Origin: Lineus longissimus
Taxonomy: Eukaryota > Nemertea > Pilidiophora > Heteronemertea > Lineidae
DNA length: 64,000 nucleotides
Reading direction: 5' to 3'
NCBI RefSeq assembly: GCF_910592395.1
Contig: NC_088308.1
Location: forward strand, 17,561,501 to 17,625,500
Shown here: positions 29,355 to 60,051 of the stretch, piece after piece
Numbering within the stretch: position 1 is the first letter of the stretch
Layout: each line of letters begins with the position of its first letter
The notes under the pieces: generated by a model
What the model was told of the DNA's origin: nothing
The model's input: the letters and a program-made list of their open reading frames with translations, nothing else
Database searches by the model: none
Made by a program: the position numbers and the translations under genes

Positions 29355-29359
29355 ACAGC

Positions 29360-37422: not shown

Positions 37423-38845
37423 TTCGCAGCCATGAATCGGCCGGCCGGCTGTGCGCCACCGATCAAATGTCGATATGCAGCAAATCTATCAAAAAACCAG
37501 GTTTGTCGAGCTTCTGTTTACCAAATAAGCTCGTTGCGGAGATTTTGTTTGTTTGGTGATATAGTAGCTTACCGTTATGGATTTTACAATAATTATAGAC
37601 TGGCTGTCCGGACTGTCGTGATCTTGCGGGCACATAAGCATGTACATACAATGTAAGGGATATTCCCGTTTTTATGTCGTGATGACGAGTGTTCAAACCA
37701 CACTCCCGCTTGACGTTCATGTATCATGCTAAGACTATTAAAATGCAAAATGACACTTTTTTTGCAAATTTTCGGCCAAAATCATGATCAAAAACAACTT
37801 TTGGGCAAATTCTGTGAGGGGCGAGGGCATTTGCCCCCTGTCCCCGCTAGCTACGCCCCAGCTGTGTTGCATCAAGCCAGCAGCAGTTCTACACACAGCA
37901 ACGGAGAGATGATCAGCGTTGCAGCCAACAAACAACCCATGGAACCTACCTTTAAATGTACAACTGTCAATAAGAACGGTCGGTGCTAAATCCAGCGAGC
38001 TGATAGCAATTAACGGAGAAGAGAGCAGCTTCGAGACACTGCATGGCCTGGAAGCGATCAGTTCTCATAAAGAAAGCCACGCGGAGACGATCAGTATTAG
38101 ATTCAGGTGAGCAGGCCAGGTGACCTCTCAACGGAGCTTACCAGGAAATTATCATGACATTTCAGCTCTCGAAAATGAGTTATGTTTTGAACGAACTCTG
38201 AGGATCCGATTACGATTTCAGATCCAGATCATGGAATGAGCGCCGGGTTTTTGCTACTGAAATTTATCTGGATACTTAGTGGTTTAAAGTTGAATCGTCA
38301 GGTTGGACTGATCGCAAAACAATTACATGTGGTGATAATTATTATTAGTTTTATAATTGTTCAAGTTTTCGTTGATATTTAATGCTTTCTTCGGAAGGAA
38401 GCTTGGTGGTGACATTTGCTGAACCCCTAGAAACATGTTAGCAGCACAGAATCAATTTCATCGATTCCGAAAGGGAGGGTCGGTTTATCTGAGAGCAGTC
38501 AGCCTGTGTGTCCAAGGCGCTGTTTCGAAATATCACTAGTGACTTATTTGTGTTTCTATGTAAGTGTGTGCGACTCGTGAGAGTTTTCCCCAGTAACGAA
38601 TTTAGCAAACCACTAGCGATTCGGTTGACAATACGATCAACATAAAGCTTTCTACGCATTTATATCAGACTAGCGGATCCGAGACGACCATTTGGATATT
38701 TGATTGTTGTTTATATCCTTTTCAAGTGGAGATATCTTCTTTAGACAAAATATCCGAAAACTTCATCATGTCAACAGTTACTGAAAGGTGACCTCGAATC
38801 ATCTTTCGTAGCAGTCCGTGTCAACCTGGATGAGTGACAAGCAAG
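37423..38845. other. Region between secreted ORF and signal-peptide exons, unit 1
   Basis: No supported gene is seen. A 63-codon frame ending at a donor-like CAG|GTGAGC (37919-38110) is present in all three units with one residue differing. The DNA is too similar for that to be evidence of coding. Confidence 0.4.
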
Positions 38846-38906
38846 ATGGTGTCCAATAAGTGGATAATTATATGGATTGCACTCTTTAATCTACTTATAG
38901 ACAAAG
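38846..38906 (+). CDS. Signal-peptide exon, unit 1 copy a
   Basis: It encodes the same 20 residues as 11588-11648 and ends in phase 1 at AAAG|GTAAGAG. It is a candidate first exon for the Ly6 exons at 51888, about 13 kb downstream. It is the original position of the exon relative to units 0 and 2. Confidence 0.55.
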
Positions 38907-39279
38907 GTAAGAGCTTCTTACGATACTTAAGAGACATTCAGTGATCAGCACTTCGATATCTGTAAATGTGTCTGGGTGACCATGTGATACATAGCTTTTT
39001 TCTGTCTATAATTGATGTGACCAACTAGAATTCACGCAACAGAAGTTATATGGGTTCATGCGTAAGCTTGCACCCATGGGTGATCGGGGGTCATGAAAAT
39101 AGGAAAAAAAACGGCTCCCTGTAAGAGACAATACAATCCAAGACAGTAACATTTTCCTAATGATCCGAACCCGCTCATTCGGTTAATCCGCCACGGTTTG
39201 GTATCTCAAATAATCGCAGCCTTCCCCTGAAGACAACAACTAAATCACTAAATTACGGTATAATCGAGTGACAAGCAAG

Positions 39280-39340
39280 ATGGTGTCCAATAAGTGGATA
39301 ATTATATGGATTGCACTCTTTAATCTACTTATAGACAAAG
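39280..39340 (+). CDS. Signal-peptide exon, unit 1 copy b
   Basis: This is an identical second copy of the exon created by the local duplication, with intact start and donor. It could act as an alternative first exon or be silent. Confidence 0.45.
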
Positions 39341-39460
39341 GTAAGAGCTTCTTACGATACTTAAGAGACATTCAGTGATCAGCACTTCGATATCTGTAAA
39401 TGTGTCTGGGTGACCATGTGATACATAGCTTTTTTCTGTCTATAATGAGTGACAAGCAAG

Positions 39461-39521
39461 ATGGTGTCCAATAAGTGGATAATTATATGGATTGCACTCT
39501 TTAATCTACTTATAGACAAAG
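39461..39521 (+). CDS. Signal-peptide exon, unit 1 copy c
   Basis: This is an identical third copy, closest to the downstream Ly6 exons, with intact start and donor. The upstream sequence is that of block X only, so its promoter context differs from copy a. Confidence 0.45.
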
Positions 39522-40275
39522 GTAAGAGCTTCTTACGATACTTAAGAGACATTCAGTGATCAGCACTTCGATATCTGTAAATGTGTCTGGGTGACCATGT
39601 GATACATAGCTTTTTTCTGTCTATAATTGATGTGACCAACTAGAATTCACGCAACAGAAGTTATATGGGTTCATGCGTAAGCTTGCACCCATGGGTGATC
39701 GGGGGTCATGAAAATAGGAAAAAAAACGGCTCCCTGTAAGAGACAATACAATCCAAGACAGTAACATTTTCCTAATGATCCGAACCCGCTCATTCGGTTA
39801 ATCCGCCACGGTTTGGTATCTCAAATAATCGCAGCCTTCCCCTGAAGACAACAACTAAATCACTAAATTACGGTATAATCGAGTCCTATCACCCCGCGCC
39901 ATGTGTGATGCAGAGCCAAGACGCCACCGCTCTGTTAAGATATAATGGCGTTCATATATCTTCATCTGTCGATAAACATGGGAACCAACTCAATCATTTT
40001 AAATTAGTTTCTCGTCGTAGCCGAAGGTAAAATACTGTATCATAACGCGCAATTGGAGATGCGGTGGCTGTTCCCTCCGAATGCGACTGCGTCAGCACAA
40101 ATATCAATTGCAAATATATCTAAGAGTCCAATTTTGTTTTAACTCTTTAAGGCTTTTTTTATACATATAGCTTACATCGCAACTACATGTACATGTTGTT
40201 TTCAATTGACAAGGTATGCATTGACAAACTATGACGTTAACCGTTATATCAATGCACATCGGTAATTTAACTAGT

Positions 40276-40321
40276 CCAATGGAGAGCATTCCAGTCTTCC
40301 TACTGGAATGCTCTCCATTGG
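40276..40321. repeat. Perfect 20-bp inverted repeat at the Gypsy breakpoint, unit 1
   Basis: CCAATGGAGAGCATTCCAGT (40276-40295), loop CTTCCT, and the exact reverse complement (40302-40321). The right arm is native integrase-region sequence of the reverse-strand Gypsy element. The left arm is an inverted copy of it joined to unit sequence. The same scar is at 56801-56846. Confidence 0.9.
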
Positions 40322-43300
40322 TGCTTTGGCAGTCTTAGGTGGTGATTTGATCATCTGGCAAGTTGGACATGCTCGTATGAATTCAACCACCAATCGCTTC
40401 AAACCTGGTCTCCAGAACCTACTCCTTACTTTAGCATGGGTTTTCAATACCCCAAGATGTGCCCCGGCGTACCCTTCATGAAGGTTACTTATTGCTTGGT
40501 CAGCCAAAGATTTTGGAAGGACCCAGCGAGGGTTATCCCGGTACTTTTTCTCTGGCGACCTCAGAATAAGGCAGTCATCCTTAACATCTAGTAACTGAAA
40601 CTGGGCCATGATAGCTCGTGCAGTGGTGCCGAGGGATCTTAAGACTGCTTCAGATGGCTTCTTGTGCTTTTCTATGTGCTCAATCACGGGGCCTATGTCC
40701 GGATCTACCCGTTCAGCCTTTGCCAAGTCTTTTGAAGTCCATGAAAGGATGCTTTGCGATTTGCCTTCTGTTCTTACCACCAAGGTTGGTCCTTTCACTT
40801 TTCCCTCTTCAAGGTGTTTTACGCAAGTGCTGTCACCCCTGCAATCCTCGTTATTTGGTTTATCCGTTGGCCCACATGACGGGCAGTCTCCATGTTGGCG
40901 GATACGCTTTGGCCGACGAGAGAGTACATCTGCATTCCCATGGAGCTTCCCAGGGCGATGTTCGATCTCATAGTCAAATTCAGCCAATCGCTCCAACCAA
41001 CGAGCTACTTGTCCAGATGGATTCTTGAAATTTAGCAACCACCGCAGGGCCATGTTGTCCACTCTGACACGGAACTTCTTACCTAGCAAGTAATAACGGA
41101 AGTGCTCACAAAAGGTGACTAATGCTAGCATCTCCCGCCGTGTTGTGCAATAGTTACGCTCGTCGCTGTTAAGAGTTTTGCTGCCGTAAGCCACCACTCT
41201 TTCAGTGTCACCAGGTTGAACTTGTGACAGGACAGCCCCTATCGCAAAATCACTCGCATCGGTATCTAGAATGAAAATTCCAGCATCTTTGGTGAAATCA
41301 GGATAAGCAAGGATCGGAGGAGATGTCAACAGTGCTTTTAGCGTAGTGAAAGCTTCTTGGCATTGCAGAGACCAGACATACTCTACTCCTTTCTTTGTAA
41401 GATTGTGCAAGAGGGTTGTTATTTTAGAGAACTCTGGGACAAATCGTTGGTAATAGGTTACAAGACCGAGGAAAGAACGTAACTCAGCCAGGTTTATTGG
41501 CACTGGCCAGCTAGCAATCTTCTTGGTCTTTTCATGATCAGTGGCGATACCATCTTTGGAAACAACATGACCTAGGAAGGAGACAGACTTCCGAAAAAAG
41601 TTTGCACTTAGTCGGTTTAAGCTTCAGCCCGGTTGTTCGGATTTTTTTGAAGACCTCCTCCAATCGTGTGAGGTGATCATCAAATGACACAATGTGGACA
41701 ATGATGTCATCGAGATAAGCCAAACAATGGGTTAGTCCTCCCAACACCAAGAACATCAGACGGGTAAAGGATGCAGGCGCCCCGGTTAACCCGAAGGGCA
41801 TGACATTCCATTCAAACTGTTTATTTCCAAAAACAAAGCTAGTCTTAGATCGATCTTCGGGTGCAACCTCCATTTGCCAATATCCGGACGCACAATCTAG
41901 GGAGCTAAACCAACATGAACCGTTCAAAGCATTTAGCGTGTCATCCACCCGAGGGAGAGGTTGTGCAGACTTAACCGTACAGCTGTTAACCCGGCGATAG
42001 TCAATACAAAGACGTAGGGACCCATCTTTCTTCTTGGCTAAGACGATCGGGGAACTCCATGGACCTTGGGCGCATACTTGATAAGGTTCTTTTCCAGTAG
42101 GCCTTGAGCAATCTCCTCTACTGCTTCCAACCTGTGAGGTGGAAGTTGTCGGGGAGCCTGCTTGATTGGCGGTGAGTTCCCAGTGTCAATGTGATGTTGA
42201 ATTAACTCACTACGGCCAATGTCAAAATCGCCACTCGAAAAGATGTCCTCATAGTCTGTAACCAGTTGTTTTGCCTTTCTTAACTGCTCTGGGGCAAGAT
42301 CAGTCTGCTCTAGTTGCAGCTGAGCAAAGAGGGTCTCCATTTCTTGCTCATCCCTGGGCTTTCTTGCTGCTGACGGCTGGTCTCTTGACGTGTCTGCATC
42401 GGCTGGCCTACCACAGTTTTCAGTCTTTCTGGTTGGGTCTATAGCACCAATCAGATGACGCTCCTGTGTGTTCTTTTCCTGGGCAGTCGACGTTGATTCC
42501 TTGTTGTTCATCTCATCTGGGGAGAAAGGAATAGCCTTGGCATCCGATGCACAACTTGGGTGGAACCATCCAAGGGTATGGTGTGACTTGATGTGCACCT
42601 CAGAGTCGGAGAGATTTGCCACACGTACTGGAACCTTTCCCTTCTGTGGGACCACTAAAGTCCGGCCGGTAAAGAAGGACTGGTTTCCCTTCCTCCTCTC
42701 AATGATGCCAGGAGTGCCTTCATTAAGATGCACCGACGACCTGAGATGTCCTGTCAAAATCATCTCTGAATTGGGTGGTATCGTTACAGATCGGTTAAGG
42801 GTCACTCGACTTATCCGTGGGTTTTCTCTGTCCTGATGGAGAGGAAGTTCCTGTCCGGCTATGGCGAGGGTCTTGGTACCATAGTCGATTGTGCAGTCAT
42901 GTTTTGCAAAGAAATCACTACCAAGGAGACAGGGATAGTCAAGATTATCAATCACGTCAACCTTATGAAGAATCTCTAAATCACCAAACTGGAATAAGAC
43001 CGTGGTGCACCCAAGAACATGCAACTCATCACCTGATGCTGACGTGAGAGAACCATCTGCTGGCCCAAGCTCTTCCCCAGAATAGGAAAATTGCTTCCAT
43101 ACCGCTGCGCTTACTGCAGTAGAAGTCGCTCCGGTGTCAAGCAAAATTGGCATAGACTCCCCATTGACCTGAACAGTGACAAACAAGCTGCTGTCTACCC
43201 AGTTAATGCTACCTTTCTTGGGTTGCGCTGAAGTAGGTTCAAATCTCGTTGCCGTTGGGTTCAATTTGGACGTCTGCAATATGTTCTCTGGGCTTGGTCG

Positions 43301-43507
43301 TTTTTCTTTTCTGATAGGTGGTGCTGTTGGACCTAAAACTGCACGGTCTTCTGAAATTATATGGTAAGCTGGACATTCATTAGATAAGTTTGTACCAATA
43401 CTAGTTGATGGTTCTATAATGGTATTACCATTCGCAACTAAATCAACCGCAGGAGGCGTTCCCAGAGCAACGTGTAAATCAGTCACCTTGGGTACACCAT
43501 CAGGCAC
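40276..43507 (-). pseudogene. pol: Gypsy Pol (protease, RT, RNase H, partial integrase), unit 1
   Basis: The protease motif ILLDTGATSTAV lies in the frame 43507-42038. Reverse transcriptase with YLDD is in 41948-41538, and RNase H (FILDTDASDFAIGAV) plus the integrase HHCC region in 41503-40271. The three frames are not the same phase, so at least two indels break Pol. The coding sequence ends at the scar, where the last residues (LECSPLD) come from the inverted arm. Confidence 0.85.
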
Positions 43508-43805
43508 CTTATTTAATGGGGGGGGGGGGGGGGGGAACCATACCTCTCAGGCAGATGAGAATTAACTGCCGTATTCTCTGGTCTTAGAGCGTCATTGCGG
43601 ATGTCAGCAGGGGCAGCTATAGGACATGAAACTTCTCTCCACGATGTACCTGTACTAGTGTTAGGCCCTACATGATTAATCAGTGATGGGTATAGATCAC
43701 CACCAACTGATTTCTGCTGGAGGACATCCCTAGTGATGTTTACATCAATCACATTGGGTGTCTCTCCAACACTAATAATATTTACATGTGGTGGGGGCCG
43801 TACAT

Positions 43806-45080
43806 TTACAATTGGTGGGAAGCATCTCGGCCCTTCGATACTCCCTGGTTGGAGTTTTCCGACACATTTGTACAATCTCTAGCAAAGTGGCCCTTACCAT
43901 GACACTGGTAACATTCAGCCATAGGGCACCGGCTAGCCCTGTGTCCCTCATTATTACAAATACGACATTTATTGTCACGCCTGGCATAGGAATTTGATCT
44001 CCTTGCATTAGCGCCTTGCTCAAGCTGGCTGAGGCGGGTTTCCATTCTACCTAAAATGTCAAGCATTTTTGCCATTTCTGACTGGTTTTCTTTGTCTACC
44101 CTATTTACCTCACCTTGAGTTTTGGTTGAGCTCGTCGCTGCAACTTTCTTTGGTTTTTGAAGAAGCGCCTCCGATTGCCGTGACATCAACTTGGCCGCTT
44201 GGAGCTGGCGAAACTTTCTCACAGCTTCACTCAAGGTGGTAGGCGCAGCCAAAAAAAGCTGCTCTCGGGTAGTTTCGGAGGCCTCAACCCCACTCATGAA
44301 GCGATCCAATGCCATCTCCTGTTGGATTGAAAACCCACTCCCTGGATAGGCGTTTAATGCCAATTCTTGGAGTGCATCCGCATAAGCTTCGGGGGTCTCA
44401 CTGCTCTTTTGATTCCGTCCTCGAAGTTGCAATTTGAAATCTTCTTTCGTGGTGTTCATGAAGCGGTTGAGGAGGGCCTCCTTATACTCCTCGTACTCCA
44501 TCCCCGATGGCAAATGGAGATTTGCAATTGCCACATAGGCCTGGTGGTCCAGCCTTGACTGCAGTTGCTCCCGCCTTTGACTCTGGGGTATCTTGCAAAG
44601 GTCGGCATAGGTGTCGAAACGTTCTAGCCAAATTCAAAAGTTTTGACCGACCACAAAGTTTTTAGGTGCCTGTACTTTGTGGGCAAGGGGAACTGCTGAA
44701 ACGGTGGGTGCGGGCAGGTCAGGGTTTAGACCCGGGGCTGGGTGACCACTGTTACCCACATGACCACTACTTGCAGCCAATTGACTGAGCAATGCCACCA
44801 CCAAAGCATTCATATCTAGGCCAGAAGGGGCCTGAGAAGCACCTTGTGCTGGCAAAGAAGCGGGGTTTGGTGACCCACTGGCCACATCTGCAGTGGGGCT
44901 TAATGGTAGCTTTGGCCTATCGCCAGTAGAACTAACCTTAGGTCTACTACCTGATGTAGACATCGTGACCTCTGCCCCTGACCTCGCGATAAACATGTCA
45001 CTTGGCTGACTCATCGTCGGCCTACTTATCATTTGTGAGACGGCCCCCGTCTCTGGGTCACTGCCATCATGCGTTGCCAT
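43806..45080 (-). pseudogene. gag: Gypsy Gag with two CCHC knuckles, interrupted, unit 1
   Basis: A 148-codon N-terminal frame (45080-44634) ends at an in-frame TGA. The capsid-like part and two zinc knuckles (CRICNNEGHRASRC and CYQCHGKGHFARDC) continue in the same frame at 44534-43806. The same TGA is present in unit 2, so it predates the duplication. An 18-base G run near 43518 lies between gag and pol only in this copy. Confidence 0.8.
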
Positions 45081-45366
45081 TGTTCTAGCTGGTTTACGTT
45101 AATGTACACGAAATGTACGCTATACTCTCAGGCAAGATCGACAAATGGACACTCAGTTCGTTACTGGAGTATTGACACAGCTAAAACTGGCGCCGGCACA
45201 GTATATTTCATGTGCAAATGTCGCGGGAAAACACCTGTAGGTTCGCATACAATGTACACAATTTTACACTATGCAATGGCGGAGCTAAAATGCGTCGGCC
45301 GGGCTCGATTAATTCTTGTAAATTATCAATGATAATGGGCTTTTATCCCATTCCGCTGCTCACCAG

Positions 45367-45576
45367 TGTAATATTCGAGTTTCTAGCTACTACGTAATAA
45401 CTCACGTCTACGATCTATGTATGGTTATTCTTGATTTCAACGCTCTTTATTCTCTTGAAACTACAGTCAAATCGGTGTGTCTCGTCGATCCGCTCAATCA
45501 CCGCGCTCTGCACTTGCGCGACCTCTCATTCGTCGCTCGCTGGTGAGGGGCCGTCTCATAAGGCCTGCTCACCACA
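45367..45576 (-). repeat. Probable 5' LTR of truncated Gypsy element, unit 1
   Basis: On the reverse strand it starts TGTGGTGAGCAGG, ends AATATTACA, and contains AATAAA. Beyond its outer edge the sequence matches unit 0 at 15149. TGGTGAGCAGCGG follows its inner edge as a possible primer site. The 3' partner is deleted, so the ends are inferred from the TG/CA termini and the breakpoint only. Confidence 0.5.
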
Positions 45577-46582
45577 TATAGATGAGACAGTTGTCAGTCC
45601 ATTGCAAGTTGGTGCCCCAAATGCACCGCGGCCAGTGATCCAAAGGTCTGTCCTAATAGCAGTCAGGCTGGATATAAAATAACATTTTCATTAGTCTGCA
45701 AATAAAAAAAGCAACCAAATGTGAGCAGGGCCTGGTTGCTCAAAAAAACATTTTGTCACAGGCACTGGCGTCAACTTAACTTGGTATTTATCGTCTTAAA
45801 TCAAGTTAAGTTAACGGCAGCATCATTGACACTGACACAACTTGCTGAGCTCTGGCTAAATGAGACGCATGACACGTGTAGGGAAAGGGGAAAAGGGTAA
45901 AGGAAAAAAGAAGGTAGTCGTTTTAAAAATTCATTTTCCAATTAGTTAAAAAAAAGCCATAATTACATATTGAGTTAGTGCAAATGTATTGTTGTGAGTA
46001 AAACAACAACAAAGTTGCTGTTTCTTGATCTTTTCCACACAATGACGTCTCTTCAAGTTGTTTTTTCCTATTAATCTTTTCCTAAAATCGTGAGAGATAT
46101 GGGAGTGTTCTCAACTAACTCCATCTCATTTAATTTCCAAGAGATTTTCACTTTTATTGAACTTTACGGATAATCTTGTCAGACATCTACACCCATGTTA
46201 CATGTACGAGCCTTTTCCAAATCTTTGGCCTGCATATGGTCAATACTTAGCCAGAACCGATCACATGCAAATGACGGTGCCCTGGATATTGATTTATGCT
46301 CTGTTTACCTGAAATATCCTCATTTAAAATGCAGGCAGCAGTTGGTAGACATAATTATTTAAATATTGTCATACTTTTTAATCAGATTAGAATCAAATTA
46401 GTGAAAAAACGGGCTGCTACACGTATGCGCAGATATCTGGAGCCAACCATAGAGCGCCAATTCTTCCTATTTTTACTGTGGTCCAGTGGCTCTACCCAGG
46501 CCATATCTTCCTCGGGTTGCATGCCAAGGTATACATTACCCGGGTCTTTTCAGGATGGGTGACATCTGAAAATCGCCCCCTA

Positions 46583-47060
46583 GCGGCCGCCATCTTGAAT
46601 TTCAAAATGGCCGACACAGCAGGACCACTAGACAGTTTTTCATGAAAACTTTTGTTCTAAATTAGCTACAGAGAAAGATGAACGGCTAACCGCATGTTCT
46701 TGGGTATGGCCAATCGAATGGCAGCGTCAAAATTGAGTCCAGATGCCCGCCGTCTGGGATTTTAAGATGGCGAATGGTAAATGGCACGCATAGTTTTCAC
46801 ACCAACCTAAAGATTGTAGGCTGTCAAACCATTTAAAGATTGGTAACAGTGAAAAGGCGGCTCCTGTTGACCGCCATCTTGAATTTCAATATGGTCGCCT
46901 CGTCGAAGTCGATCTAAAACAGTTTTTTGGCTATAACTTGAGTTTTAATACGGCTCCAAACAAAACTCAAAGCTAGGTCATCAAGTCTAACCCAACCAAT
47001 CGAATGGTGCCATTGACGATGACGTCACATGCCGCAATATTGGATTCCAAGATGGCCACC
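46583..47060. repeat. Dyad-symmetric box array, unit 2
   Basis: Four of the five boxes described at 28697 are present. The fifth was removed by a deletion joining CTCAAATG to CCAAGACC near 47151. Confidence 0.6.
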
Positions 47061-48635
47061 ACTAAAATTATGCATCTCATTTGCCAAGCCTGATTATTTG
47101 CACAGAGATGTATTAAGAGCTTATTACAGCAAAACGTTTTTTGCTCAAATGCCAAGACCTATTACCTGACACCCATTTGTTAAAACAATAATTATGGTTT
47201 CAGACAGGGGGTCTACGTTTAGTTTCAATTACATGTAAGGCAGAATCCTTCAATAATAGATGAATGTCACACCACGTAATGCTACATATACACAAGGCCT
47301 ACGTTTATTATACACAATGTATTTTACATCGCGCCTCTCACAAACGATACGCGGCATAAAACACCCGAATGTGGATAAAGGCCTTTAATGATCTTCAGCC
47401 AGACACTAACAGCTGGGCCAAACCCAGAACGGCAGTTAAAATTAATGACTCAATTTCTATTCGCATTTTTCTAATTCTTAATTATTTCTTGATTAATTCA
47501 TGAGAAAGACGATATAATGCGAGACCCTCAATGATTTCTGTCAGCATTCGAATCTGGAAGCACCCGTTGATAAGGTAAGTGCCACGCTGTTACATCGTTA
47601 CTCTTCTTCTCATTATCACTCCCGTAAAACATGCCAACTGAGCCAAACCCAAAATCTGCTGACATCGCCATACTTTCATCCATCGCCCAAAAGGCAGATG
47701 TATCAGCCAATGAAAAGGATTTTTCGTCACTACCGGAGTTCCTTTTGATAATACTCCTGATCTGTTTTTTAGCCGAAAGTATAAAACCCAGTGAAACACC
47801 ATGATGTGGCGAAGTTAGCAAGTTTTTTCAGCATCGTTTTTCACAAAAACTCAATCGATCGGGGATTGTGCCAACAAAACATTGTACATTTTAAGAAATC
47901 TTCCAAAATTCACTAGACCCCGCTTGATAGAATTGCAGATATTTGGTATGCCTGTTTAGAATACCCCTACCTGTCTTTTGAAAGCTATTTACGGGCGTGG
48001 AAAAGTTTTTTAGTGCAAAGTGAGCATGTTTGACGGTCCGTGTTTCATCAGCGATAATGTTTCACCTCTTGGGTTTGTTGATGAACAAACTCGTAATACG
48101 GGTATATTGGTACATGTATATCACTTTTTTTATTTCCGAAAACCAGTCTAGACAAAAACGTAATTATGCTATTTTAAAGGTTAGAGCCTGTACTCTTAAA
48201 ACAACATGAAATGCTTACAATTTCACAGAGAACGCAGCACACTTGAAATTCAGTGTTGGCCACTGGCCTCCGACACTGGGATGAAGGCAATACACTGAAG
48301 CAAAACACTTTTGCAAATTCTGAGGCAGGAAAAATACCCTGATTTAAACTGCATTAAAAACTGAATAATAAAAACACTAAAAAGAGTTGGGGTCATTAGG
48401 CACTTTTCCGAGCAACTCCAATTTTTCTGTCCCGCCCCGTATTTCGCGACGTTCTTTAATAAACTGGTTTTCTGAGACCAAGCCGAACCACATAGCTTAT
48501 AGTCCATTCATAAATATTATGTCCGCATCGTTTGGGGCTCTGGAGGACGAACAACCTTTCCGGAATTCTTTGAAATTTGGTTTTTATTGATCCTTGCCTC
48601 AAAACCAAACAGATGTATGCACTATTCCAATTTCC

Positions 48636-48643
48636 TATAAATA
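48636..48643 (+). promoter_or_regulatory. Putative TATA box of unit 2 peptide gene
   Basis: TATAAATA lies 255 bases before the ATG at 48898 and is identical in position to the unit 1 copy. Confidence 0.5.
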
Positions 48644-48897
48644 AGGAAAAATCGTTTCAACTACTTGTAGCGTGGGGTAAAGCTCCTATTTTTTCAGAAA
48701 CAAAGTAACAAAGTGGATGCGCAAAAACAAAATTTAGATTTCGAAAACCGAAAGAATTTGGTAGTGAAACATAATAAAATTTGTTGACAAAATTATCTAT
48801 TTATCTATTTCCCAGAATCTTAAAAAGGCGCGAAATTTTACAGGTATTTCTGACCTATCAGTCAGTAAATCTTCATGATCATTATCTTCCAGATAAA

Positions 48898-49521
48898 ATG
48901 AAGTTCGTCATCCTACTGGTCCTGTCCGTGGTCATTTGCAGTGTTGCCACTGAAAGAACCATCAAGAGAGAGGAAGATGTGACCCAGGAAGAGTCCGAAG
49001 AGGTCGCCAAGAGATTGTTTTTCAAGAATTTCGTGAAGAGCCACTGGAAGGAAGCAGCCAGGGCTGGTCTTAATTTTGCTAGTAAAGCCCTTGCAAAGAG
49101 AGGCGAGGATGTGACCAAGGAAGAGTCCGAAGAGGTCGCCAAGAGGTTGTTTTTCAAGAATTTCGTGAAGAGCCACTGGAAGGAAGCAGCCAGGGCTGGT
49201 CTTAAACTGGCTGGTAAAGCCCTTGAAAAGAGAGGCGAGGATGTGACCAAGGAAGAGTCCGAAGAGGTCGCCAAGAGGTTGTTTTTCAAGAATTTCGTGA
49301 AGAGCCACTGGAAGGAAGCAGCCAGGGCTGGTCTTAAATTGGCTAGTAAAGCCCTTGAAAAGAGAGGCGAGGATGTGACCAAGGAAGAGTCCGAAGAGGT
49401 CGCCAAGAGGTTGTTTTTCAAGAATTTCGTGAAGAGCCACTGGAAGGAAGCAGCCAGGGCTGGTCTTAATTTGGCTAGTAAAGCCCTTGAAAAGAGAGGC
49501 GAGGATATGACCAAGAATTAG
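48898..49521 (+). CDS. Secreted precursor with four cationic amphipathic peptides, unit 2
   Basis: The precursor has 207 residues. A signal peptide (1-17) and a short acidic prosegment are followed by four modules. Peptides lie at 40-66, 84-110, 128-154 and 172-198, each starting LFFKNFVKSHWKEAARAGL and followed by KR. Acidic spacers GEDVTKEESEEVAKR lie at 69-83, 113-127 and 157-171, and the tail is GEDMTKN. The 44-residue (132-bp) unit is almost identical in all four copies. Each peptide is Lys-rich (net about +4), has one Trp and Phe/Leu/Ala spaced for a helix with one hydrophobic face. Cleavage at KR by prohormone-convertase-type enzymes would release four peptides, and acidic spacers may neutralise them in the precursor. 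No Gly precedes KR, so C-terminal amidation is not expected. I do not recognise a named family; a host-defence peptide is most likely. AATAAA is at 49632-49637. Confidence 0.82.
   Translation: MKFVILLVLSVVICSVATERTIKREEDVTQEESEEVAKRLFFKNFVKSHWKEAARAGLNFASKALAKRGEDVTKEESEEVAKRLFFKNFVKSHWKEAARAGLKLAGKALEKRGEDVTKEESEEVAKRLFFKNFVKSHWKEAARAGLKLASKALEKRGEDVTKEESEEVAKRLFFKNFVKSHWKEAARAGLNLASKALEKRGEDMTKN
49015..49497 (+). repeat. Intragenic 132-bp coding repeat, unit 2
   Basis: There are four peptide modules with three intervening spacers. Copies differ mainly at peptide residues 20, 21, 23 and 27. The near-identity indicates recent expansion or concerted evolution by unequal exchange within the gene. 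Confidence 0.9.
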
Positions 49522-49637
49522 AAGGTTATTGTAAAGGAAAGTAGAATGGCAGGTGTCATATGAAAAAGATGCGAGTAGGTACTTCCCGTATTCCTATGTA
49601 ATGGCTAGTCTTCATTCCATCTGAAGATTGAAATAAA

Positions 49638-51887
49638 ATCATCACTGCTTTGACATTATCGTTTGCGTGAGCCAGTCTTTTTTGTTCTGGTGATCTGTTC
49701 ATCGAATTCACAAGGGTTGTCTAGCAGGGTGTGTTTTGTTTTGGACAGGATTTGTCACTCATAGTTCACGAAGGATTAGAAATAATTTCGTCAAGAGATC
49801 ACCTCACATTCTCAAATTTATTCACTGATTTTAACCAAAAAACGGTCAATGGCCATAATTGTGCTCAGCGGATTGTCATTTGGATGTGAATGATGTTCCA
49901 GTATCTATATACACCCGAACGGCTAAATCAAGATCCCTGATATAACATGACCTAAGAGCACTAATATATACAAATTAATGAATCATTATTCAATTCAAAG
50001 ATTGTACATGTTGTACTTTACCTATAAGGACATTGTTTTTGACAAACAGGCAAAAACTAACTTATCTATTTCTATTGGGTGTAAGGGTAAAGGTAATTAA
50101 AGAATATGGAGTAAGGGTAGGCGTGGGGTCACTGGCCTTTTTCTAGGTCCAGAATCTTTCTCTAACGGTTACTGCGTTTAAATGTCTCGTTGGAGTTTAA
50201 GCTGGGTCGATCGCCGTCGGCTAACCTATCATCACCCGCCGCGCCAACGGTCGACCAAGAAACGTACCGGGGTAGCACATGATCATTCTGATGCGATCGT
50301 CCAATTGGTTTTAATGTCAAATCATACTCCCCGCGATGTGGTTGGATAACGCTACAAGAGAGCTCCATGTTCATTGCTAATTGACTTCCTACCCCTACTC
50401 TTGACCTTGTTTTATAAAAATGCGGGTAATGAAGATTTCCAGATAGAAATGGCTCGCCTAGTGACGCACGTACAGTGGAGCGTGTGATGCACGCCTTAGT
50501 CGCCGTTGTTTTGTTGCACCATTACAAAATGTAGATTAAAATGAACCCAACACCAGCGAAAATCCTTTATTAGAGATCAGCCAGTGTTATGCTACATGTG
50601 GTGGCGCAAAGTGGCGAGAAGGGGAATTATCATCCTTGCTAGCTATCGCCCACGGCCTAAATGCGCATTTGAAAACACGAATGGAGAGTCTCGTGCCCAG
50701 GCCATTTGGGAATTGACTCTCCCTACTGAGTGAGGATGCCATTTCACCGCAGATCATCAGATCAGGCCCCACATGTCTCCGAGATAATTGTTTTTCTTTG
50801 GCACGCCACCAAGTAGAAAATGCAAAAATATTCATTAAATTGGATGATAACCAGACAACAAATCCTGATGTCGTGTGCAGGTAACGGACGACATTCATTT
50901 CTTCAGATACGCTTACTGTTTTTGCATATTCAAACCAGTCATATGAAAGGTTGAAAGGACAACTATAAGTGACACAGAAAAGATAAAATTATGACGGGTA
51001 CGCCTAAGATATCTACTTGACCCTCAATGTATTGACATTGTTCAGCTTCCAGACAACGCGGTGCGAAGGCAGCACCGCTGGAAGTTCAGTATGCCTTTCT
51101 GGTGGCAACGATTCTGCTTTTCATCGCACTGACCAGTCATCTAATTAGCTGTCACCCATCTGCCTATTTCGTGTTACTGGGTGACTATTCATCAGTGGAA
51201 AACCAGTGTCACTCGCATTTTATGGGAGTGACATTGGCTTAAAGATAATGAATGTGAGGAGTATCCCAATTTGGTTATTGAGCCGAGTATGGCCAATCTG
51301 AGACAGGAATTCTAAACCTCCGTTGTAATTAGGAAAACACCAGAGTTGTGATAATTGTAACGATGCCTTAATCGTGACGGCTATAACGTCCTTGATCTCT
51401 CATTTCCAAAGGTAGCGACTAAAAATAAGACTGCCCATTATGTGTGATATTGCTAAGCAATGAATGGAATATCAGATTTTAATAATAGACATATACACGC
51501 CGTGGAAGATATATCTTTGAGAGCTGCTATTAGAAAGGGTTCTTTCAGTGCTATAGGAATATAACTTCTGATTTGGCCAATCCATAGATAAAAGACATAA
51601 TAAACGCAAAGGAAAATTGTTTTGTTCCGGCGAATTCATCCATTATTACCAAGCCACGGTCGAATGCTTCTCTTCGACAAAAAATTTCGATTATGGTATC
51701 AACTACACATTTTGATTTTGATCAGTGATACATTCTGAATCAACTTTTATTTCCAGTTTCCAGTTTTCTGTTTCAAATTTACTTTCGCATTTAAAGACGA
51801 AAGGTTAACACGTGGTGTCTTAGTTGTCACATGTATGAGCTACATTTGAAACTTGAACAGAAATTATTTGAAATCCCATGTTTTCAG
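49638..51887. other. Unit 2 region between peptide gene and Ly6 exon 2
   Basis: This is the counterpart of 31701-33950 and has the same content: no recognised gene, a reverse-strand frame at 50587-50898, and the open stretch with a hydrophobic segment at about 51053-51244. Confidence 0.45.
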
Positions 51888-53252
51888 CTTTCGGAGGCAT
51901 CTACTATGAAGGACTGACTGGTACCAATCTTTCCTGCTACACGTGTAAGGAAAGTTACAAAATCACGCCATACGACCCAACAGCCCACACCTGCCAGTCA
52001 AACCTTCCCAAAGTAGACATCATCTCCTGCGGCATGAAAGATAAATACTGCAAGGTATGACTGCAGAGAATAATTATACCCACGCTAATCTCCTGTAGCG
52101 GATAGGTGCCGTCAAAGCAGATCTCACAGACATCCGTGCAGTGCAGGGCCGGAGAAGCGAACGTTAACCCCCGATTTCCTCAGGATGCACATAGTAGGTG
52201 GCTTCCTTAAAAGTGGCATCTACAATGTTTACATGTACTTCAGTCAGGTTTGCAAGATATTTCGCGGGTGTTGAACGATTTGAATTTACTTGAAAGTGTT
52301 TCTGAATAAGGCCGGGTATAATCATATCAAAATTTTGTTCTCCTCCCTGGACGACTCAATTTATATGGTTCCGTAAAGCAAATATGCCTTTTTAGAAGTT
52401 TACCTTTTGCCACCATTTTGCTTTGAGGAGACACATGGGCAGTGTTGCTGAGAGCATATATATGAGTATGGTTCTTGGCACTTCATTCTTGAGTATTTAA
52501 AATTATTCGCTCGATCACACTCACACATAGGTTGTTATACGGAGATGCCTTTTGAGGTACTAGTATAAATCATGCTTGGAGACACACAACTTTCATGTAA
52601 ACCACCAGCGACGAGACGACATTTCGTAGCTAATTATTTTATTCAAAGTGTAACAAACCGAATTACATTAGAGATAATTTTAAAATACCCGAGTGAGAAT
52701 ATTTCATTTTCATAATGGATAATATATAAAGCATCGTTTTCACAACAGTGGTTTGGGCGAGACAACCATAACCGCTTGGGTTAGTGCAAAATGTGGAAGC
52801 ACTTCAAAAGCATTTAAAACCAAATTATTCAATATTTGATTTGAGATGTTTCAGAATAGAAATTGATACCTCACTGTCGGTATTGATTGTCTCACCCAAA
52901 CCGCTCGGGTGGAGCTAAATATAGGCTACGCCTCGGTTTTGGTCTACATTACGAGCGGTTTGGGTGAGACAACCAATACCTCCAGTTCGGTATCAATTCC
53001 TTAATCAAACAACCTGTACGTATATTTCTAATCTAGAATGAATTACAATTTAAGGTTACAATTGAAAGAAGCTGTACGGACACATGTTATTATGGATGTA
53101 AGTTCCAAGGATACGGATTGACCTATCTGAAATGTACGTCGTGCTGTAGAGGACATGCGTGCAACACAGACAGCCACGGAGTGATTATCACGCCAAGTTT
53201 ATTTCTTTATGTGATGATGATTTTAATTGCTACATTTATAATCCGAGGATAA
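51888..53252 (+). CDS. Ly6/uPAR-domain GPI-anchored protein, exons 2-3, unit 2
   Basis: Exon 2 is 51888-52054 and encodes the same residues as unit 1. Exon 3 is 53055-53252, ending TAA instead of TGA. An in-frame 30-base deletion right after the acceptor removes ten residues between the two cysteine-rich halves (VERVELQ... of unit 1). All twelve cysteines, CCRGHACN and the hydrophobic GPI-type tail remain. The candidate first exons lie at 38846, 39280 and 39461 in unit 1, with a matching phase-1 junction. The intervening 12-13 kb contains a Gypsy fragment and the four-peptide gene. Confidence 0.8.
52858..53003. repeat. Inverted repeat in Ly6 intron 2, unit 2
   Basis: This is the copy of the hairpin at 34920-35066. 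Its outer arms pair slightly better here (GGTATCAATTCC against AATTGATACC). Confidence 0.6.
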
Positions 53253-53424
53253 ACGATAAGTCCGTATCGTCGTCTGACGGTGGCCAGTGGTACCAGGCTA
53301 TATCCGCAGTAGTTCGCGTACGCTCAGGAAAATCTAATGAATATAAAATGAGGTCTAAAAATAGTTTTAGGAATACCATTATTATGAAGTCAGCGATGGA
53401 ATTTCCTGGTTGGACTTAGGAAAT

Positions 53425-53754
53425 TTATGATAAAATAACTAGGACTGTGCACTTGGTGGGAGTGGCCGTCCCTTCCCTTACTTCGTTACTTCGAGATTTT
53501 TTCCAAATGTGCTGGAAGACCTCCAACGGCAGACGAATTTGGAGTTGGTTCTCGAAGTTGTGTTCCGGCGGAGCATTAGGAGGAGAAGATGAACCACCGG
53601 CTGGTGACCTCTTAACTCGAACTTCATGGCGACGGCCCGGTTCTTTGATAGGGTCAGGCCAGCGGAAAACCCCAACACCTTCAGTTTTGCTGGAGTTGCC
53701 GCAAAACATCGCAGCACAACGCCACCCGACAACCCTTTTCTTTTTCTTCTCCAT
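53425..53754 (-). CDS. THAP-like zinc-finger ORF (partial), unit 2
   Basis: The frame has 109 residues. After a basic start (MEKKKKRVVGW) it shows RCAAMFCGN, the Cys-x4-Cys opening of a THAP domain, then GVFRWPDP and RRHEVRVKR, matching the F-x-x-P and W/H-x-x-x-V-x-R positions of that family. The second zinc pair (Cys-x2-His) and the AVPTIF end are missing. The remaining 60 residues have no similarity I recognise, so this is at best a first exon or a remnant. THAP domains bind DNA and occur in host regulators and in P-element-like transposases. The unit 1 copy has a stop before the first Cys. Confidence 0.45.
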   Translation of the reverse strand: MEKKKKRVVGWRCAAMFCGNSSKTEGVGVFRWPDPIKEPGRRHEVRVKRSPAGGSSSPPNAPPEHNFENQLQIRLPLEVFQHIWKKSRSNEVREGTATPTKCTVLVILS

Positions 53755-54267
53755 AATCTTCAGTTCTTATCGTGTATATATTGTGTAAGGACAGGATGGA
53801 ATGTCAATGGTCAATGGCAGTTGTAAATAAACGAATGAGATTTTTTTTTTCGCGGGAATGTAAACCATCGCGACAGCGAAAATGTTCATGTTGTGACGTC
53901 ATCAACAAAAACGTCGTCGGCGTAGCGCGATTTCAACGGCATCGAAGCGAGCCGTCCGGGCGGGATTAAAACCATCAATTTCTCGAAAATGTGCATTTCG
54001 ATTCGAAAACCTTACCGATTTATGAGAAAGTGACGTAGTAATTTGTCAAAAACAGCTAAAACATTATATGGTGAAATTTGACACGAGTTACCCTTTAAAG
54101 TTTTTCAATAGAAATATGCATCGATATGATAATCGCCACCCTCGACGAACTTTTTGTTATTTCTGTTGCCTAGTTACTCCGCAAACTTCACGTGTTTGTT
54201 TCATATGCAATGATATTAGGAATCAACAGATATATACTTTTGACGACAACGTGTAATTGGTTCCAAA

Positions 54268-54570
54268 ATGGCGCAAGTGAGGGGCATGCTCCTCATATTT
54301 CTGGTGTTTCTTCTGGAATGTCAATGGATTCGTGGTGAAGAAGAACCAAGGCTTCCACTGGGAATATCAAAAGGTAAGCCATCAGAAATTCAATTTTGGC
54401 TTTCTAAAAGCTGTCCCCATGTAGGAGGCATTGCAGTTTTGATGCACACATTACAAATTCTTAGTGGCAATCTGAGTGATTTAGTGTCTTTCCAAGAGGT
54501 CACAATAATCACGGACTTGGTGTGTAGGTCCGTGCAACAAGCGATGTGTTTTGACAACATCGATCAGTAG
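54268..54570 (+). CDS. 100-residue secreted ORF of unknown function, unit 2
   Basis: This is the intact counterpart of 37120-37422 with the same start, signal peptide, donor-like AAAAG|GTAAGCC (after 54373) and stop. Two residues differ. The alternative reading as a phase-1 first exon applies here too. The family is not recognised. Confidence 0.45.
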   Translation: MAQVRGMLLIFLVFLLECQWIRGEEEPRLPLGISKGKPSEIQFWLSKSCPHVGGIAVLMHTLQILSGNLSDLVSFQEVTIITDLVCRSVQQAMCFDNIDQ

Positions 54571-55989
54571 TTCGCAGCCATGAATCGGCCGGCTGTGCGC
54601 CACCGATCAAATGTCGATATGCAGCAAATCTATCAAAAAACCAGATTTGTCGGGCTTCTGTTTACCAAATAAGCTCGTTGCGGAGATTTTGTTTGTTTGG
54701 TGATATAGTAGCTTACCGTTATGGATTTTACAATAATTATAGACTGGCTGTCCGGGCTGTCGTGATCTTGCGGGCACATAAGCATGTACATACAATGTAA
54801 GGGATATTCCCGTTTTTATGTCGTGATGACGAGTGTTCAAACCACACTCCCGCTTGACGTTCATGTATCATGCTAAGACTATTAAAATGCAAAATGACAC
54901 TTTTTTTACAAATTTTCGGCCAAAATCATGGTCAAAAACAACTTTTGGTCAAATTCTGTGAGGGGCGAGGGCATTTGCCCCCTGTCCCCGCTAGCTACGC
55001 CCCAGCTGTGTTGCATCAAGCCAGCAGCAGTTCTACACACAGCAACTGAGAGATGACCAGCGTTGCAGCCAACAAACAACCCATGGAACCTACCTTTAAA
55101 TGCACAACTGTCAATAAGAACGGTCGGTGCTAAATCCAGCGAGCTGATAGCAATTAACGGAGAAGAGAGCAGCTTCGAGACACTGCATGGCCTGGAAGCG
55201 ATCAGTTCTCATAAAGAAAGCCACGCAGAGACGATCAGTATTAGATTCAGGTGAGCAGGCCAGGTGACCTCTCAACGGAGCTTACCAGGAAATTATCATG
55301 ACATTTCAGCTCTCGAAAATGATTTATGTTTTGAACGAACTCTGAGGATCCGATTACGATTTCAGATCCAGATCATGGGATGAGCGCCGGGTTTTTGCTA
55401 CTGAAATTTATCTGGATACTTAGTGGTTTAAAGTTGAATCGTTAGGTTGGACTGATCGCAAAACAATTACATGTGGTGATAATTATTATTAGTTTTATAA
55501 TTGTTCAAGTTTTCGTTGATATTTAATGCTTTCTTCGGAAGGAAGCTTGGTGGTGACATTTGCTGAACCCCTAGAAACATGTTAGCAGCACAGAATCAAT
55601 TTCATCGATTCCGAAAGGAAGGGTCGGTTTATCTGAGAGCAGTCAGCCTGTGTGTCCAAGGCGCTGTTTCGAAATATCACTAGTGACTTATTTGTGTTTC
55701 TATGTAAGTGTGTGCGACTCGTGAGAGTTTTCCCCAGTAACGAATTTAGCAAACCACTAGCGATTCGGTTGACAATACGATCAACATAAAACTTTCTACG
55801 CATTTATATCAGACTAGCGGATCCGAGACGACCATTTGGATATTTGATTGTTGTTTATATCCTTTTCAAGTGGAGATATCTTCTTTAGACAAAATATCCG
55901 AAAACTTCATCATGTCAACAGTTACTGAAAGGTGACCTCGAATCATCTTTCGTAGCAGTCCGTGTCAACCTGGATGAGTGACAAGCAAG

Positions 55990-56050
55990 ATGGTGTCCAA
56001 TAAGTGGATAATTATATGGATTGCACTCTTTAATCTACTTATAGACAAAG
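55990..56050 (+). CDS. Signal-peptide exon, unit 2
   Basis: This is a single copy with the same 20 residues and phase-1 donor as the others. By the pattern of the array its partner Ly6 exons would be in unit 3, beyond the window. Confidence 0.5.
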
Positions 56051-56800
56051 GTAAGAGCTTCTTACGATACTTAAGAGACATTCAGTGATCAGCACTTCGA
56101 TATCTGTAAATGTGTCTGGGTGACCATGTGATACATAGCTTTTTTCTGTCTATAATTGATGTGACCAACTAGAATTCACGCAACAGAAGTTATATGGGTT
56201 CATGCGTAAGCTTGCACCCATGGGTGATCGGGGGTCATGAAAATAGGAAAAAAAACGGCTCCCTGTGAGAGACAATACAATCCAAGACAGTAACATTTTC
56301 CTAATGATCCGAACCCGCTCATTCGGTTGATCCGCCACGGTTTGGTATCTCAAATAATCGCAGTCTTCCCCTGAAGACAACAACTAAATCACTAAATTAC
56401 GGTATAATCGAGTCCTATCACCCCGCGCCATGTGTGATGCAGAGCCAAGACGCCACCGCTCTGTTAAGATATAATGGCGTTCATATATCTTCATCTGTCG
56501 ATAAACATGGGAACCAACTCAATCATTTTAAATTAGTTTCTCGTCGTAGCCGAAGGTAAAATACTGTATTATAACGCGCAATTGGAGATGCGGTGGCTGT
56601 TCCCTCCGAATGCGACTGCGTCAGCACAAATATCAATTGCAAATATATCTAAGAGTCCAATTTTGTTTTAACTCTTTAAGGCTTTTTTTATACATATAGC
56701 TTACATCGCAACTACATGTACATGTTGTTTTCAATTGACAAGGTATGCATTGACAAACTATGACGTTAACCGTTATATCAATGCACATCGGTAATTTAGT

Positions 56801-56846
56801 CCAATGGAGAGCATTCCAGTCTTCCTACTGGAATGCTCTCCATTGG
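56801..56846. repeat. Perfect 20-bp inverted repeat at the Gypsy breakpoint, unit 2
   Basis: It is identical to 40276-40321. The adjoining unit sequence lacks four bases (TTAGTCC instead of TTAACTAGTCC). Confidence 0.9.
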
Positions 56847-59800
56847 TGCTTTGGCAGTCTTAGGTGGTGATTTGATCATCTGGCAAGTTGGACATGCTCG
56901 TATGAATTCAACCACCAATCGCTTCAAACCTGGTCTCCAGAACCTACTCCTTACTTTAGCATGGGTTTTCAATACCCCAAGATGTGCCCCGGCGTACCCT
57001 TCATGAAGGTTACTTATTGCTTGGTCAGCCAAAGATTTTGGAAGGACCCAGCGAGGGTTATCCCGGTACTTTTTCTCTGGCGACCTCAGAATAAGGCAGT
57101 CATCCTTAACATCTAGTAACTGAAACTGGGCCATGATAGCTCGTGCAGTGGTGCCGAGGGATCTTAAGACTGCTTCAGATGGCTTCTTGTGCTTTTCTAT
57201 GTGCTCAATCACGGGGCCTATGTCCGGATCTACCCGTTGAGCCTTTGCCAAGTCTGTTGAAGTCCATGAAAGGATGCTTTGCGATTTGCCTTCTGTTCTT
57301 ACCACCAAGGTTGGTCCTTTCACTTTTCCCTCTTCAAGGTGTTTTACGCAAGTGCTGTCACCCCTGCAATCCTCGTTATTTGGTTTATCCGTTGGCCCAC
57401 ATGACGGGCAGTCTCCATGTTGGCGGATACGCTTTGGCCGACGAGAGAGTACATCTGCATTCCCATGGAGCTTCCCAGGGCGATGTTCGATCTCATAGTC
57501 AAATTCAGCCAATCGCTCCAACCAACGAGCTACTTGTCCAGATGGATTCTTGAAATTTAGCAACCACCGCAGGGCCATGTTGTCCACTCTGACACGGAAC
57601 TTCTTACCTAGCAAGTAATAACGAAAGTGCTCACAAAAGGTGACTAATGCTAGCATCTCCCGCCGTGTTGTGCAATAGTTACGCTCGTCGCTGTTAAGAG
57701 TTTTGCTGCCGTAAGCCACCACTCTTTCAGTGTCACCAGGTTGAACTTGTGACAGGACAACCCCTATCGCAAAATCACTCGCATCGGTATCTAGAATGAA
57801 AATTCCAGCATCTTTGGTGCAATCAGGATAAGCAAGGATCGGAGGAGATGTCAACAGTGCTTTTAGCGTAGTGAAAGCTTCTTGGCATTGCAGAGACCAG
57901 ACATACTCTACTCCTTTCTTTGTAAGATTGTGCAAGGGGGTTGTTATTTTAGAGAACTCTGGGACAAATCGTTGGTAATAGGTTACAAGACCGAGGAAAG
58001 AACGTAACTCAGCCAGGTTTATTGGCACTGGCCAGCTAGCAATCTTCTTGGTCTTTTCATGATCAGTGGCGATACCATCTTTGGAAACAACATGACCTAG
58101 GAAGGAGACAGACTTCCGAAAAAAGTTTGCACTTAGTCGGTTTAAGCTTCAGCCCGGATGTTCGGATCTTTTTGAAGACCTCCTCCAATCGTGTGAGGTG
58201 ATCATCAAATGACACAGTGTGGACAATGATGTCATCGAGATAAGCCAAACAATGGGTTAGTCCTCCCAACACCAAGAACATCAGACGGGTAAAGGATGCA
58301 GGCGCTCCGGTTAACCCGAAGGGCATGACATTCCATTCAAACTGTTTATTTCCAAGAACAAAGCTAGTCTTAGATCGATCTTCGGGTGCAACCTCCATTT
58401 GCCAATATCCGGACGCACAATCTAGGGAGCTAAACCAACATGAACCGTTCAAAGCATTTAGCGTGTCATCCACCCGAGGGAGAGGTTGTGCAGACTTAAC
58501 CGTACAGCTGTTAACCCGGCGATAGTCAATACAAAGACGTAGGGACCCATCTTTCTTCTTGGCTAAGACGATCGGGGAACTCCATGGACCTTGGGCGCAT
58601 ACTTGATAAGGTTCTTTTCCAGTAGGCCTTGAGCAATCTCCTCTACTGCTTCCAACCTGTGAGGTGGAAGTTGTCGGGGAGCCTGCTTGATTGGCGGTGA
58701 GTTCCTAGTGTCAATGTGATGTTGAATTAACTCACTACGGCCAATGTCAAAATCGCCACTCGAAAAGATGTCCTCATAGTCTGTAACCAGTTGTTTTGCC
58801 TTTCTTAACTGCTCTGGGGCAAGATCAGTCTGCTCTAGTTGCATCTGAGCAAAGAGGGTCTCCATTTCTTGCTCATCCCTGGGCTTTCTTGCTGCTGACG
58901 GCTGGTCTCTTGACGTGTCTGCATCGGCTGGCCTACCACAGTTTTCAGTCTTTCTGGTTGGGTCTATAGCACCAATCAGATGACGCTCCTGTGTGTTCTT
59001 TTTTCTGGGCAGTCGACGTAGATTCCTTGTTGTTCATCTCATCTGGGGAGAAAGGAATAGCCTTGGCATCCGATGCACAACTTGGGTGGAACCATCCAAG
59101 GGTATGGTGTGACTTGATGTGCACCTCAGAGTCGGAGAGATTTGCCACACGTACTGGAACCTTTCCCTTCTGTGGGACCATTAAAGTCCGGCCGGTAAAG
59201 AAGGACTGGTTTCCCTTCCTCCTCTCAATGATGCCAGGAGTGCCTTCATTAAGATGCACCGACGACCTGAGATGTCCTGTCAAAATCATCTCTGAATTGG
59301 GTGGTATCGTTACAGATCGGTTAAGGGTCACTCGACTTATCCGTGGGTTTTCTCTGTCCTGATGGAGAGGAAGTTCCTGTCCGGCTATGGCGAGGGTCTT
59401 GGTACCATAGTCAATTGTGCAGTCATGTTTTGCAAAGAAATCACTACCAAGGAGACAGGGATAGTCAAGATTATCAATCACATCAACCTTATGAAGAATC
59501 TCTAAATCACCAAACTGGAATAAGACCGTGGTGCACCCAAGAACATGCAACTCATCACCTGATGCTGACGTGAGAGAACCATCTGCTGGCCCAAGCTCTT
59601 CCCCAGAATAGGAAAATTGCTTCCATACCGCTGCGCTTACTGCAGTAGAAGTCGCTCCGGTGTCAAGCAAAATTGGCATAGACTCCCCATTGACCTGAAC
59701 AGTGACAAACAAGCTGCTGTCTACCCAGTTAATGCTACCTTTCTTGGGTTGCGCTGAAGTAGGTTCAAATCTCGTTGCCGTTGGGTTCAATTTGGACGTC

Positions 59801-60051
59801 TGCAATATGTTCTCTGGGCTTGGTCGTTTTTCTTTGCTGATAGGTGGTGCTGTTGGACCTAAAACTGCACGGTCTTCTGAAATTATATGGTAAGCTGGAC
59901 ATTCATTAGATAAGTTTGTACCAATACTAGTTGATGGTTCTATAATGGTATTACCATTCGCAACTAAATCAACCGCAGGAGGCGTTCCCAGAGCAACGTG
60001 TAAATCAGTCACCTTGGGTACACCATCAGGCACCTTATTTAATGGGGGCAA
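56801..60051 (-). pseudogene. pol: Gypsy Pol, interrupted, unit 2
   Basis: Protease (ILLDTGATSTAV) lies in the frame 60051-58945. A further frame follows at 58865-58563, reverse transcriptase with YLDD is at 58473-58063, and RNase H plus integrase zinc region at 58028-56796. The protease-to-RT part is split once more than in unit 1, by the single-base insertion near 59000. The integrase core is missing beyond the scar. Confidence 0.85.

Follow-up and report, generated by a model that had tools for sequence, protein, structure and literature searches.

The reading frame at 48898-49521 of a 64,000-nucleotide stretch of Lineus longissimus DNA (the window) is best explained as encoding a secreted precursor with several copies of a linear, membrane-active peptide that would serve in defence (antimicrobial) or cytolysis and be released by dibasic cleavage, a reading assigned a probability of roughly 0.6. 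The anatomy of the frame supports the predicted secretion and processing, and from it we infer activity, together with transcription, cleavage, a helix, membrane action and a role in defence. A paralogous gene and the segmental duplication containing both genes, neither of which figured in the initial annotation of the locus, supply the best hints as to function.

Anatomy of the four-copy precursor

ORF translation revealed an intact frame on the plus strand, running from ATG to TAG and specifying 207 residues. Its parts, as defined by translation, hydropathy, charge counts and alignment, are as follows.

48898..49521, plus strand: four-copy precursor ORF, 207 residues, intact (translation)
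48898..48948, plus strand: putative signal peptide, residues 1-17 (hydropathy up to 3.56)
48970..49008, plus strand: acidic spacer 1, net charge -7 (charge count)
49015..49095, plus strand: cationic peptide 2a, 27 residues, net charge +4 (charge count, alignment)
49102..49140, plus strand: acidic spacer 2, net charge -5 (charge count)
49147..49227, plus strand: cationic peptide 2b, 27 residues, net charge +4 (charge count, alignment)
49234..49272, plus strand: acidic spacer 3, net charge -5 (charge count)
49279..49359, plus strand: cationic peptide 2c, 27 residues, net charge +4 (charge count, alignment)
49366..49404, plus strand: acidic spacer 4, net charge -5 (charge count)
49411..49491, plus strand: cationic peptide 2d, 27 residues, net charge +3 (charge count, alignment)
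49498..49521, plus strand: C-terminal tail of 7 residues, plus stop codon (translation)
49632..49637, plus strand: AATAAA, candidate polyadenylation signal (consensus match only)

The N-terminus is hydrophobic, with an 11-residue Kyte-Doolittle mean reaching 3.56, and is followed by small residues and a charged segment; on the basis of the small-residue rule, signal cleavage is presumed to occur after Ser-Val-Ala. The remainder of the chain is built from a unit of 44 residues, comprising KR, a 13-residue acidic spacer (net charge -5 or -7), a second KR and a 27-residue cationic peptide, which appears four times before a final KR and the tail, with KR being found at all nine boundaries. At the DNA level, Tandem Repeats Finder describes 48964-49515 as 4.2 copies of a 132-bp period with 96% matches. 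The four 27-mers are identical to one another at 23 of 27 positions, differing only at positions 20, 21, 23 and 27. Each bears a net charge of +3 or +4, is free of both cysteine and proline, and has a pI of 10.0-10.5 and a mass of 3052-3091 Da (calculated average masses: 3052.5, 3060.6, 3090.6 and 3076.6 Da). The signal peptide, the near-identical 27-residue segments, the acidic spacers and the KR pair at every boundary that had been described in the initial annotation were thus all recovered. Such a signal-like N-terminus (judged by hydropathy), together with tandem copies bounded by dibasic sites, is what defines a multi-copy secreted precursor, while positive net charge and the absence of cysteine are features of linear cationic antimicrobial peptides.

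Beyond residue 18, the precursor carries a net charge of +10 overall, such that the spacers neutralise the peptides incompletely. Just 5' of the ATG, a donor-like site at 48842 and an acceptor-like site ending at 48892 delimit a candidate short intron.

Architecture versus chance

On the minus strand, 48898-49521 is also spanned by two open frames, which measure 211 and 226 codons from stop to stop. Because copying an open 132-bp unit keeps other frames open as well, the openness of the frame is in itself weak evidence. Attention was hence given to architecture, scored in ORFs of at least 80 residues as a signal-like N-terminus combined with adjoining segments, one acidic and one cationic, delimited by K/R-R cleavage sites, with thresholds chosen post hoc, when the ORF was already in view, and with 60 dinucleotide shuffles of the window serving as the null. 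The full architecture was seen in 2 of 54 ORFs in the 64-kb window, these two being copies of each other, as compared to 0 of 1491 ORFs in the shuffles. When scored alone, a signal-like start was present in 4 of 54 real and 14 of 1491 shuffled ORFs, and acidic/cationic alternation in 5 of 54 and 6 of 1491, respectively.

These numbers bear on the possibility that the frame is a decaying or never-translated repeat, open merely through the copying of one open 132-bp unit. The open antisense frames would be expected of such a sequence, as would the stop codons in the second repeat of the neighbouring copy described below and the transposon proteins encoded around the locus. Nonetheless, no shuffled ORF combined a signal-like N-terminus and such cleavage sites with alternating charge, no frameshift is found among the four repeats, and both changes seen in the spacer and KR sites of the first-repeat pair (see below) are synonymous, making a decaying repeat very improbable.

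A paralogue within a tandem segmental duplication

ORF searching and alignment revealed a second gene of the same type upstream of the four-copy precursor, with each gene being contained within one unit of a tandem duplication.

31223..31489, plus strand: paralogous precursor, 88 residues (ORF search, alignment)
28598..46489, strand not given: neighbouring duplicated unit containing the paralogue (blast block starts, ends approximate)
46490..62982, strand not given: duplicated unit containing the four-copy gene (blast block starts, ends approximate)

The paralogue presents an unchanged signal peptide, an identical first spacer and conserved KR sites, with one residue (residue 22) differing shortly downstream of the signal peptide. 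It is truncated, containing a single intact 27-mer (1a, 31340-31420), followed by a second repeat (1b) bearing two in-frame stops, and recognisable repeat DNA extends to approximately 31585. The 132-bp intragenic repeats accordingly number four in the gene at 48898 and two in the gene at 31223. An AATAAA consensus match also lies 3' of the paralogue, at 31695.

The tandem segmental duplication itself spans 28598-64000, with units starting at 28598, 46490 and 62983 and with main blocks that are approximately 97-99% identical, as determined by blast. The block at 62983-64000 matches 28598-29610 and runs off the end of the window, suggesting that a third duplicated unit may lie beyond this point. 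An older partial copy of the duplicated unit is found at 10041-15783 and 27919-28482, with other sequence interposed.

Several other features of the window were noted. Both duplicated units contain ORFs of a gypsy-type retroelement, at 40271-45098 and 56796-61590 (minus strand), lying within a block of 7.7 kb that is 99.0% identical between the units; in the first unit, matches to RNase H-like, integrase zinc-binding, aspartyl protease and CCHC families were obtained with three of these ORFs. Among the best 120 of 1013 proteins matching the pol of this element, the top match is 54% identical across 87% of the query, and identities reach 60% over approximately half of it, with the proteins coming from many animals and from unnamed sources. 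A second, different gypsy-type element lies at 20898-26509 (plus strand), two ORFs of which match reverse transcriptase, RNase H-like and integrase domains. An uninterrupted ORF of 650 codons at 16836-18788 matches a MULE transposase domain, with a FLYWCH zinc finger scoring just above and a PHD finger just below the cut-off. A short ORF with a signal-like N-terminus is kept in both units (37120-37422 and 54268-54570), and 10041-10375 matches part of it; no Pfam match to the 37120-37422 ORF was obtained at E up to 0.001. ORFs at 36278-36574 and 53425-53766 (minus strand) bear a possible resemblance to the start of a THAP zinc finger. In addition, a 440-bp repeat is present with 100% identity at 38830-39269 and 39445-39884, adjoining a 181-bp tandem repeat at 39259-39636, and several exon-like ORFs resembling C-type lectins are found at 4612-8727, two of three tested matching Lectin_C. 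The CpG observed/expected ratio of the window is 0.79.

Divergence between the two genes

The 5' flanks of the two genes differ at 10 of 1745 bases (0.57%) and the 3' flanks at 50 of 3535 bases (1.4%). A higher estimate for the 5' flank (4.6%; 92/1983) was dropped, as it included a gap-rich junction with 82 gap columns. Between the genes, the first repeats differ at 16 and the last repeats at 20 of 132 bases (12-15%); the repeats may not be orthologous, such that some of this divergence may predate the duplication.

When the first-repeat pair was considered by region, the C-terminal 19 peptide residues showed 13 nonsynonymous changes and one synonymous change, the first eight residues showed no changes at all, and the spacer together with KR showed two synonymous and no nonsynonymous changes. 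Comparison of the peptide tail with the spacer and KR yielded p = 0.025 (Fisher), a value that pertains to one pair selected after viewing. Elsewhere, the spacer does vary, with 2.5 nonsynonymous and 2.5 synonymous changes separating 2a from 2b, 2c or 2d. Positive selection was also considered and set aside, since the pattern is suggestive yet the excess of nonsynonymous change in the first-repeat pair was not significant in a binomial test (p = 0.16).

At the protein level, peptides 2a and 1a differ at 9 of 27 residues and are both of net charge +4. The first eight residues are invariant in all five intact peptides and altered in the broken repeat 1b, and lysine or arginine occupies positions 4, 8, 12, 16 and 24 in each of the five. 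In the intact copies, the head of the peptide is thus fixed, the tail is variable and charge is retained. Such a combination would be more in keeping with action on membranes than with binding to a receptor, although this is not proof.

A signalling precursor, namely, one encoding many copies of a neuropeptide, hormone or pheromone that is released at dibasic sites and acts through a receptor, was considered as an alternative. Precursors of this type often encode near-identical copies within a single polyprotein, and the invariance of the first eight residues in the five intact copies would be in keeping with a ligand. On the other hand, the peptides of the two first repeats disagree at 9 of 27 residues although the flanks are only 0.6-1.4% apart, the length of 27 residues and the net charge of +3 or +4 speak against a ligand, and the protein searches described below returned no match. 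Moreover, in many neuropeptides amidation is usually signalled by a glycine preceding a dibasic site. Here, each peptide has alanine or glutamate immediately ahead of its downstream KR, and glycine is found before none of the KR sites. In yeast alpha-factor, as described in the excerpted text of PMC5850478, the repeats are likewise in tandem and variable in number, with expansion and contraction affecting mainly the inner copies and odd ones being found at the edges. A comparable pattern is seen here, in that 2b-2d share spacer letters that the edge repeat 2a lacks. Alpha-factor is, however, a 13-residue pheromone produced as near-identical copies according to the same excerpt (PMC5850478), whereas the cationic peptide encoded here has 27 residues and varies from one gene to the other. 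Overall, a signalling role is considered a serious although unlikely alternative, and a membrane-active defence or cytolytic peptide is preferred.

A more elaborate proposal can be offered as a speculation with a limited chance of being correct, namely, that the peptide family serves as a generator of diversity. A tandem array of genes with internal peptide repeats would be homogenised within each gene by unequal exchange, while the last 19 residues would diverge between genes more than 10 times faster than the flanks, with conservation of the signal peptide, the bulk of the spacer, peptide residues 1-8 and the lysine spacing.

Amphipathicity and predicted structure

The initial annotation had portrayed the 27-mers as lysine-rich and amphipathic, and proposed prediction of the helical moment as a check. 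With the angle fixed at 100 degrees, no excess over shuffled sequence was found, with 25-38% of shuffles equalling or exceeding the full-length moment of each of the four peptides, and 8-24% doing so when the best windows of 11 and 18 residues were taken from the five peptides. When the angle was left free, the best values were obtained at 91-92 degrees and were equalled by 2.8-3.4% of shuffles, in a comparison that favours the observed sequences, these having been scanned in steps of 1 degree and the shuffles in steps of 4. The cationic character of the peptides (net charge +3 or +4) stands, whereas the claim of amphipathicity is upheld only in part. The further claim of a secreted host-defence peptide divides similarly. 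A secreted, multi-copy, dibasically processed cationic precursor is upheld, whereas host defence is plausible only, given that the moment at 100 degrees does not rise above that of shuffles. Basic residues placed every four positions would form a stripe winding slowly round an alpha helix. AlphaFold modelling conducted without an alignment gave a pLDDT of 47.5 and was uninformative.

Searches for relatives

In a protein search of approximately 5.8 billion sequences, zero matches at E up to 10 were obtained with either the precursor (7998 candidates scored, these sharing the most words) or the paralogue (20 candidates scored). Entries of nr, UniRef and EukProt are part of the database, shared 5-residue words are needed for detection, and the extent to which small animal genes are represented is uncertain. 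No PDB sequence matched the precursor. Calmodulin-binding target sequence from CaM kinase I (PDB 1mxe), paired with the 27-mer at 13.8 bits (E = 0.43), was judged a chance hit. Six words from the peptide were found in none of the searched text of 5.39 million open-licence papers, and of 13 and 220 pattern stretches in viral and prokaryote contigs, respectively, where an animal gene is not expected, none was confirmed. Likewise, none of the 14 and none of the 4 NCBIfam models reached their cut-offs, nor did any of the four Pfam families listed for the paralogue.

For the precursor, 26 Pfam families matched, and among the 25 listed IBN_N (PF03810) alone passed its cut-off, scoring 39.6 bits over the whole precursor against a cut-off of 21, in four stretches. 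Taken at face value, this would make the frame a fragmentary importin-beta N-terminal repeat protein. The best stretch, however, covers only 18 of 73 profile positions, with the score summing four copies of that one stretch, and with the paralogue, which contains one full repeat, IBN_N is absent from the matches at E up to 10. Importins are, moreover, not known to be secreted. The match was thus rejected as an apparent repeat-summing artefact, and the importin reading is considered to have next to no probability. The description of the family in the initial annotation as apparently undescribed holds within the databases and literature searched, where no relative was found; the multi-copy layout itself is already known.

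Proposed route to the peptides

In the preferred reading, that of a defence or cytolytic precursor, the signal peptide would direct the chain into secretion, cleavage after each KR would be carried out by a furin-like enzyme or a prohormone convertase, and a carboxypeptidase would remove the basic pair, yielding four 27-residue peptides (approximately 3.05-3.09 kDa) per chain as well as the acidic spacers. Prior to release, the spacers would probably counterbalance the positive charge on the peptides, and the released peptides would most likely act on membranes, in host defence (antimicrobial) or as cytolysins. Copy number has increased at two levels, through the intragenic 132-bp repeats and through tandem duplication of units of approximately 16.5-18 kb. 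If expressed, the two genes would yield five different intact peptides (four and one) from a family absent in the searches. The locus as such offers a compact natural comparison, in which intragenic repeats and gene duplication jointly alter the dose and diversity of a putative secreted effector.

Comparison with known systems

Apidaecins are proline-rich, unlike the proline-free 27-mers considered here. As for the named frog peptides, none was returned in the protein searches with the precursor or the paralogue. According to the excerpted text of PMC5850478, antimicrobial peptides made as polyproteins include both magainins and apidaecins. The magainin precursor of Xenopus skin, set beside the present frame by description only, likewise carries several peptide copies per secreted polyprotein in that excerpt (PMC5850478), and the apidaecin precursor of bees, named in PMC5850478, in PMC8423362 and in the reference list of PMC6832493, likewise contains tandem copies of an antibacterial peptide. 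Baramicin A of Drosophila similarly gives rise to tandem related peptides from one precursor and has also undergone locus duplication, as outlined in part of PMC8423362. As described there, Baramicin A employs furin RXRR sites and releases mixed peptides, whereas KR sites and one repeated unit are found here (PMC8423362).

Spider venoms offer a parallel for another explanation, namely, that the peptides are cytolysins of a venom or secretory gland, of the same chemistry but aimed at prey or predators rather than at microbes. Such venoms contain multi-peptide precursors in which linear antimicrobial peptides are set in a row with short spacers, according to the excerpt of PMC6832493, and the divergence of the repeats and the duplication of the gene would fit this role as well. 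In these complex precursors, the same excerpt (PMC6832493) has spacers ending in a quadruplet motif (PQM), in which position -1 is Arg and a Glu lies somewhere at -2 to -4, and an inverted PQM at the start of the spacer, with Arg first and Glu at 2 to 4. Here, all four peptides instead follow Val-Ala-Lys-Arg, with no Glu at -2 to -4, which departs from the quadruplet motif of spiders as given in that text (PMC6832493). Each peptide is followed by Lys-Arg-Gly-Glu, which fits the inverted PQM only if Lys is counted as part of the peptide. A venom or gland cytolysin is considered a rather improbable although serious alternative. Returning to the preferred reading, the layout of the frame matches that of multi-copy antimicrobial precursors, such that it would represent a new sequence of a known type, with defence or cytolysis as the likeliest function.
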